Shown here in pieces: positions 28,486 through 32,817 of a DNA stretch of 64,000 nucleotides (within the stretch, counting starts at the first letter, position 1; every line of letters begins with the position of its first letter). The translations under genes were made by a program, and so were the position numbers. This stretch comes from an uncultured Flavobacteriaceae bacterium (lineage in GTDB: Bacteria; Bacteroidota; Bacteroidia; Flavobacteriales; Flavobacteriaceae), in NCBI GenBank assembly GCA_943789465.1, contig CALSUF010000002.1, positions 434,001-498,000 of the forward strand, given 5' to 3'. The notes beneath the pieces are model-generated. The model made no database searches, was not told where the DNA came from, and saw nothing but the letters and a program-made list of their open reading frames with translations.

Positions 28486-30088
28486 ATGACTTTATCTCAA
28501 TGGTTTATTTTTTTCTTAGCAATTCAATTGATTCATGGATTAGGCACTTGGAAGCTATACATTAAAGCTGGCCAAAAGGCATGGAAAGCATTCGTTCCAA
28601 TTTACAATGGTGTTATTTTTATGAAAATCCTAAACCGACCAACTTGGTGGGTTGCATTGTTATTTTTACCAGTGATCAGCTTAATTATGTCAATTATCAT
28701 ATGGGTGGAAACCGCCCGAAGTTTTGGCAAAAATACAACAACAGACACTATTTTATCAATTGTCTCTTTAGGGTTTTATAGTTATTATTTGAACTATTTT
28801 ACAGATTTAAAACACATAGAAGACAGGAGTTTAAAACCAAAATCTGGATCAGGAGAATGGTTCAGTTCTATCCTCTTTGCAATAGTTGCTGCCACTATTG
28901 TACACACCTATTCTCTTCAACCATATGTAATTCCTTCCTCTTCACTCGAAAAATCATTATTAGTAGGCGATTTTTTGATTGTGAGTAAAATGCATTACGG
29001 TCCTCGTGTGCCCATGACCACTATTGGTCTTCCTATGGTTCATGATACGATTCCAATATTAAATAAAAAATCCTATTTATTTAATGATCGAATTACGGAA
29101 CAAAACTCTTCTCTGAAAAGTAAATTTCAACTCCCCTATTTACGAATTCCGGGATGGGAAAAAATTGAACGTAATGATATCGTTGTTTTCAATCAGCCAG
29201 CAGATACCCTTCTGGATATGAATGATTTTAGGCCTGAAAGAAATTACTACAAACCCATCGATAAAAAAACAAATTTAGTCAAACGCTGTGTAGCTATTGC
29301 CGGGGATACTCTTGAAATAAGAGATGGCTATGTATACATCAATGGTATTCAAAATGAACTCCCAGTCCGTGCTAGACTACAGTTTAGCTACGAAGTTACC
29401 CTCAAGCCAGGAAAAACGTTTGAAAGAAGCATTATTCAACAATTAAAAACGCGTTATGACATCACTGATGGCATCTATGCCAGCTGGAAATAAAATTATC
29501 ATCCCTGCGGCTTCAGAAGCTGCTGTAAAAACATTTAAAAACCACCCAAGTGTTGCTCGCATCACACGTTTTATAGAGCCTGAAGGAAAAGCTGATATTG
29601 GATTATTCCCTCAAGATCCTAGTTACGATTGGAATCGTGACTTTTTTGGACCTCTTTATATTCCAGAAGAAGGGAAAACAATTGAGATCAACTTAAAAAA
29701 TCTTCCAGTTTACAAAAGACTCCTCACAGAATACGAAGGAAACACAGTATCTACAAAAGGCAATCAAATTTATATCAACGGAAAACTTGCTAAATCATAT
29801 ACTTTTAAACAAAATTATTATTGGATGATGGGCGACAATCGTCACAATTCCATAGATGCTCGTGCGTGGGGATTTGTACCATTTAACCATGTTGTTGGAA
29901 AACCTGTTTTTATTTGGATGAGCTGGAATACCAACGGGAAAGGATTCAATAAAATACGATGGGATCGCGTGTTCACAACTGTTCATGCTGATGGAGAACG
30001 AACCTCCTATTTTATTCCATTCTTATTTTTATTGGCGGGATGGATTGGATATAGCAAATGGCGTAAGAAAAAAAATGCAACCGTTTAA
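28486..30088 (+). pseudogene. lepB: Signal peptidase I, split by a frameshift
   Basis: Two reading frames make one LepB. The first (28486-29493) has three or four N-terminal membrane segments in the Bacteroidota style, the catalytic Ser153 in P-S-S-S-L-E-K-S-L and Lys266 in V-K-R-C-V-A-I-A-G-D. The second (about 29485-30088) holds the G-D-N-R-H-N-S-x-D-A-R box and a C-terminal membrane segment. They meet near 29480-29493: removing one base, for example T29485, joins A-S to G-N-K-I-I-I-P. LepB removes signal peptides and is normally essential, so a sequencing error is likely, but a true mutation cannot be excluded. The upstream neighbour is dapB and the downstream one a WbqC-like gene, the usual order. 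Confidence 0.85.
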
Positions 30089-31952: not shown

Positions 31953-32817
31953 TTATTTACCTGCTCGGAACAAAAAGTCCTTTTCTGCTTGTGTTAAACT
32001 TTCATAGCCACTTTTACTAATTTTATCGAGGATAAGGTCTATTTGCTTTTGATGCGTAAACCGATCAAACTCTTCTTTTTTCTTACCAGCAAACGATTGT
32101 TTTTTGTTTTTATTTTTATGCACGGTTTTTAAGGGAGCTGCTGTTCCAGAAAAATAGGCTGTAATTCGGTCTATAAATTGTCCAATATCAATTCCTTTTT
32201 GAAACTGTATCGCATAAAAATATCCCAAAAGGTAACCTCCAAAATGTGCCACTGTTCCGCCTGAGTTTTGAGATAGCAAACCTGGAACATCAAATAAAAC
32301 CATCGCGATACCTATATATTTTAATTGAAATTGAAAGGTGAAAAATTGTACTTGTTTGGTGGGTAAATAAGCGCATAAAAATATGATAATCGCGCGTACA
32401 CCTGCAGAGGCACCAACTACAGGTCCTACTGTATTTAAAATGCCTGATGGAAATAAATTATATACTAATACAAAAGCAAAACCACCACAAAGTATCCCTA
32501 ACAAATATACTTTAAGTGATAGATCTTGTTTAAATAAATTTGAAAAGGAACGTCCAAAAAAATACAGTATTATCATATTAAAAAACAAATGGACAAAACT
32601 ATAATGCGTAAAGCCATAGGTTAACAATGTCCACGGTTTTGAAAGCACTTCCGAAAACGACTTTGAAAGCGACAACCAGTCTAAGCTCGCTTCAGCTCCC
32701 TTGAAGTCTTAAAGAGACAAAACTGAAAAGAAATACAACTACATTTACTACAATGATTTTTTCAAACACATTGAGCCTTGATAATTTTTCTCTAATATCT
32801 TGGTTAAGACTTGTCAT
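31953..32817 (-). pseudogene. Rhomboid-family serine protease, frame-shifted
   Basis: The 5' part starts with ATG at 32817 (M-T-S-L-N-Q-D-I) and holds the first membrane segment, then stops at TGA (32692-32694). The 3' part continues in another frame with W-L-S-L-S-K-S-F and the rest of the protein. Deleting one G from the GGG at 32698-32700 (minus strand) gives R-L-Q-G-A-E-A-S-L-D-W, a smooth join of about 288 residues. The catalytic Ser is in V-G-A-S-A-G and the His in V-A-H-F-G-G-Y, so the joined protein would be active. Rhomboids cleave membrane helices inside the bilayer. The start overlaps the other rhomboid's stop by one base. Confidence 0.82.

Follow-up and report, generated by a model that had tools for sequence, protein, structure and literature searches.

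A frame break in the signal peptidase I gene lepB of an uncultured Flavobacteriaceae bacterium is very probably an error of the assembly

Signal peptidase I is normally essential, and in the stretch of 64,000 nucleotides from an uncultured Flavobacteriaceae bacterium analysed here (the window) its gene, lepB, is divided between two reading frames. We asked whether this break belongs to the organism or to the assembly. The gene stands in the order ParA, ParB, DUF5683, DapB, lepB and a WbqC-like protein, and no tRNAs were found in the window. A single uninterrupted frame for signal peptidase I is absent from the window. Instead, the frame breaks near 29480-29487 and the gene reads as two overlapping ORFs of 335 and 210 amino acids, which lie on the same strand in different frames (Table 1). 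An initial annotation of this DNA had described lepB as split by a frameshift, and our profile searches confirm this, since each ORF matches both the Peptidase_S26 and the signal peptidase I profiles. In Peptidase_S26 (PF10502, 168 positions) the 5' ORF covers positions 3-103 and the 3' ORF positions 89-168, with scores of 80.4 and 52.1 bits, respectively (cut-off 22.9). In TIGR02227 (signal peptidase I, 162 positions) they cover positions 1-96 and 88-161, with scores of 69.9 and 47.8 bits, respectively (cut-off 47). The 3' part also matched solved signal peptidase I chains, e.g., 1b12. The same annotation had placed the catalytic Ser and Lys in one frame and the G-D-N-R box in another, which agrees with the codon positions: the presumed catalytic Ser codon at 28942, within IPSSSLEKS (28930-28956), and the presumed Lys codon at 29281, within LVKRCVAIAGD (29275-29307), both lie in the first frame and the GDNR box lies in the other. 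We take these boxes and the roles of their residues by analogy with LepB of E. coli.

Table 1. Features of the lepB locus and of a second broken gene in the window (positions of the window).
Feature	Coordinates	Strand	Remarks
lepB 5' part	28486-29493	+	DUF5684 region and first part of the S26 domain; out-of-frame TAA at its end
lepB 3' part	29456-30088	+	Other frame; GDNRHNSIDAR box at 29831-29863; own ATG at 29456 within the 5' part
Zone with one extra base	29480-29487	+	From alignments with same-genus relatives; exact position not determinable
Rhomboid family gene, second broken gene	31953-32817	-	Frame change within 32674-32702; 286 aa in G001

What separates the window from its relatives at this spot is a single base. 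We placed 15 loci of the same genus in one alignment, of which 11 aligned properly; the remaining four (L007, L008, L013, and L018) lay on the wrong strand in this alignment and were compared by tblastn instead. One base of the window is absent from all 11 properly aligned loci, and the aligner placed it at 29480. This extra base is the sole indel within lepB relative to 10 of the 11 loci, while the eleventh (L009, from genome G015) has downstream deletions of its own. A second aligner scattered the length difference across neighbouring columns, and the exact extra base cannot be fixed because the surrounding bases vary between relatives. The earlier suggestion of one base too many is right in its count, but T29485, given there as an example, is one of several equivalent choices. 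The spot lies outside long homopolymers, the nearest runs being AAA at 29488 and AAAA at 29492. The closest aligned relative is 83.5% identical to the window within lepB, and no further genome of that species turned up among those searched. Amino-acid identity in the first part ranges from 82 to 92% across 16 genus loci; for the five nearest genus loci, the first part is 90-92% identical and the second part 86-90%.

The initial annotation had proposed a comparison of this spot with close relatives, and we found no locus that is broken there. Our genus search covered 17 other genomes, 16 of which have a contig that spans the spot, while the contig of G009 stops before it. All 16 spanning genomes read through the spot in a single frame, G015 being broken only further downstream. 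We also checked a larger collection of 109 loci, of which 96 are distinct, that takes in the genus loci and some duplicates. In every one of them the two halves share a frame, and no stop lies near the spot. The whole matched span is free of stops in 106 of the 109, and the remaining three each contain a single stop, well beyond the spot in the downstream direction. Two of these, L009 and L083, are both the G015 locus, with the stop at residue 478 of 527; in the third, L047, the stop is at residue 348 of 362, close to its end. The lepB of G015 is broken downstream by several small deletions, which suggests that the G015 draft carries errors of its own. The public record of one locus (L067) is titled Rhodobacteraceae, yet the 3' part of its lepB is 86% identical to the Flavobacteriaceae gene of the window; it looks as if either the title is wrong or the bin is mislabelled.

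We next consider whether the cell could do without an intact lepB. The genome searched comprises 2,095,858 bases in five contigs and is 84.92% complete by estimate. Profile searches of this whole 84.92%-complete genome for a second S26 peptidase, with PF10502 and TIGR02227, found only the two halves of lepB. The earlier statement that the window contains no second copy therefore extends to the whole genome searched, and the copy elsewhere that had been offered as one explanation did not turn up. The one PF00717 (S24) match, on contig C1 in an open frame of 152 amino acids, is not a second signal peptidase, S24 being a LexA/UmuD-like family distinct from S26. If the loss of lepB were real, no known signal peptidase I would be left, unless a copy sits in the missing part of the genome. 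An estimated completeness of 84.9% does leave room for a different signal peptidase that compensates for the loss and is missing from the assembly. However, neither profile matched anything beyond the two halves, and in the single-contig relative G001 each half of lepB is matched once, the two matches side by side, so that we regard the probability of such compensation as close to negligible.

The break in lepB is not the only one in this assembly. When the window was compared with the syntenic stretch of G001, which is one contig and 99% complete, we found two frame-change pairs, one in lepB and one in a rhomboid family gene whose break is 3.2 kb from that of lepB. Queries from G014 and G016 recovered the same two breaks of the window. 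In the reverse comparison of the window stretch, there were no frame-change pairs in G001 and three each in G014 and G016. We extended the scan to 754 kb of C2, one of the five contigs, with the single-contig relative G001 as the reference. With ORFs of G001 as queries, positions 298001-754000 of C2 (456 kb) contain 13 frame-change pairs versus 3 in reverse, with near equal numbers of residues compared (107,629 and 107,666 in reverse), while positions 1-300000 contain 7 versus none in reverse (81,916 and 81,164 residues). By eye, some of the 20 pairs look spurious: the ORFs of 105 aa and 109 aa, and those of 400 aa and 466 aa at their upstream ends, seem to run into non-coding DNA. These pairs were kept in the counts. 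Of the three pairs found in reverse, one has a 161-aa query that is itself the 3' fragment of the broken tatC. Nineteen of the 20 pairs are shifts of one base and one, in TauE, is a shift of 11. The genes broken include carB (twice), uvrA, menD, tatC, COX15/CtaA, GH92, a sulfatase, a TonB receptor and TauE. Judged by eye, about 14 of the 20 breaks look like insertions, and most lie outside long homopolymers. The two breaks in carB, at approximately 139700 and 141550 of C2, are one insertion-like and one deletion-like; the intact carB of G001 lies at L205:11516-14365.

By eye, 4 of the 13 pairs on C2 298001-754000, lepB included, have the tetranucleotide AGCT at the change or within approximately four bases of it. 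On C2 1-300000 it is near the change in one of the seven pairs, and its background frequency is 3.3-3.4 per kb. AGCT is possibly a systematic error context, a lead only, because the motif was chosen after the first set of pairs had been viewed.

Similar breaks in many unrelated conserved genes of C2 point to one common technical cause, and many genes broken here against few in the single-contig relative is the pattern that consensus errors give. The sequence shows a frame break, lepB occurs once in the genome searched, the relatives are unbroken, and C2 has an excess of such breaks; from this we infer that the break lies in the consensus rather than in the cell. The break in lepB is thus very probably an uncorrected assembly (consensus) error and not part of the biology of the organism. 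Under this explanation, lepB would be a normal, unbroken gene in a member of the Flavobacteriaceae close to Formosa sp. Hel1_33_131, from whose name we assume that the source bacterium is marine, and its product would be a single signal peptidase I of about 533 amino acids. One false extra base near 29480-29487 would make the gene read as two ORFs, and this would be one among many small insertions and deletions left uncorrected in the assembly. Sequencing error had headed the options of the initial annotation, and our data favor it: the break is absent from 109 of 109 loci, lepB has a single copy, and the 754 kb scanned hold many other small breaks in excess of those in G001.

Selective constraint bears on the remaining explanations. 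The ratio dN/dS was obtained for 11 of 14 loci (the start word was not found in three), with the broken L009 of G015 left out. Against these 11 relatives it is 0.036-0.075 in the 5' half and 0.028-0.076 in the 3' half, ratios that are rough because dS is near or above 1. From these sequence comparisons both halves of lepB look constrained, and dN/dS does not point to decay following the break. Low ratios in both halves are evidence against an old pseudogene, but a mutation that arose very recently would be compatible with them. A newly arisen mutation would be expected to leave no trace in dN/dS, and the extra base might therefore be real, either as a mutation that the sampled cells acquired very recently or as a minority variant that entered the consensus. 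We consider this quite unlikely, given that the genome searched contains no S26 peptidase besides lepB, that the product of lepB is normally essential, and that the many comparable breaks in unrelated conserved genes of C2 suggest a shared technical cause.

Constraint on both halves would also suit a gene whose two ORFs are translated separately into halves that form a working split enzyme, and the second ORF does have an ATG inside the first. That ATG, however, sits in a stretch that is coding in the other frame, and a split at this spot was seen in none of the 109 loci. Moreover, the breaks in the rhomboid gene, carB, uvrA, menD, and tatC would each need a comparable special account. A cell that lives with a split enzyme, another of the options raised earlier, is for these reasons not favored, and we judge it extremely unlikely.

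A programmed +1 ribosomal frameshift that joins the two frames would be another means of making a whole protein from this sequence. By eye, a 0-frame TAA directly after AAA at the join provides the geometry needed for a +1 slip. Against this, the extra base that a shift would have to bypass is missing from the relatives, so that there is no conserved shift site, and we found no downstream stimulatory RNA structure: in a test of simple folds (without pseudoknots), the 91 nucleotides from the join on gave a fold z of 0.46, and 133 of 200 shuffles folded at least as well. A Shine-Dalgarno-like stretch was not seen by eye just upstream of the join, and the literature matches listed for signal peptidase I or lepB contain no mention of a programmed frameshift. 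Such a shift would, in addition, leave the other broken genes of the assembly unexplained. The initial annotation had ranked a programmed shift as the least likely of its options, and with neither conservation nor a downstream fold in its support we find it barely credible. More broadly, that the extra base is real and that this lineage, unlike the 16 genus relatives checked, uses a two-piece or slippage-joined signal peptidase is in our view highly improbable.

With assembly error as the preferred explanation, split or lost genes in this assembly should not be taken as biology without the reads, and the same caution applies to three other drafts with breaks of this kind, G014, G015, and G016. 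The estimated completeness of 84.9% may itself partly reflect genes that are broken rather than missing.

The gene of the window shares the DUF5684 region and the S26 domain with LepB of its Flavobacteriaceae genus relatives (533 aa), and differs in that theirs is in a single frame while the window version is in two frames through one extra base. The assembly appears to be a long-read one because of its few contigs and its breaks. Indels that fragment genes are described in long-read assemblies (PMC12007338), and interrupted ORFs have been used to flag indel errors in metagenome-assembled genomes (PMC9426551). The assembly analysed here shares with such drafts small breaks scattered through genes that relatives have whole. 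It differs in the kind of break, however: in the nanopore assembly of PMC12007338 false deletions predominate and are tied to homopolymers, whereas most of the breaks found here look, by eye, like insertions outside long runs.
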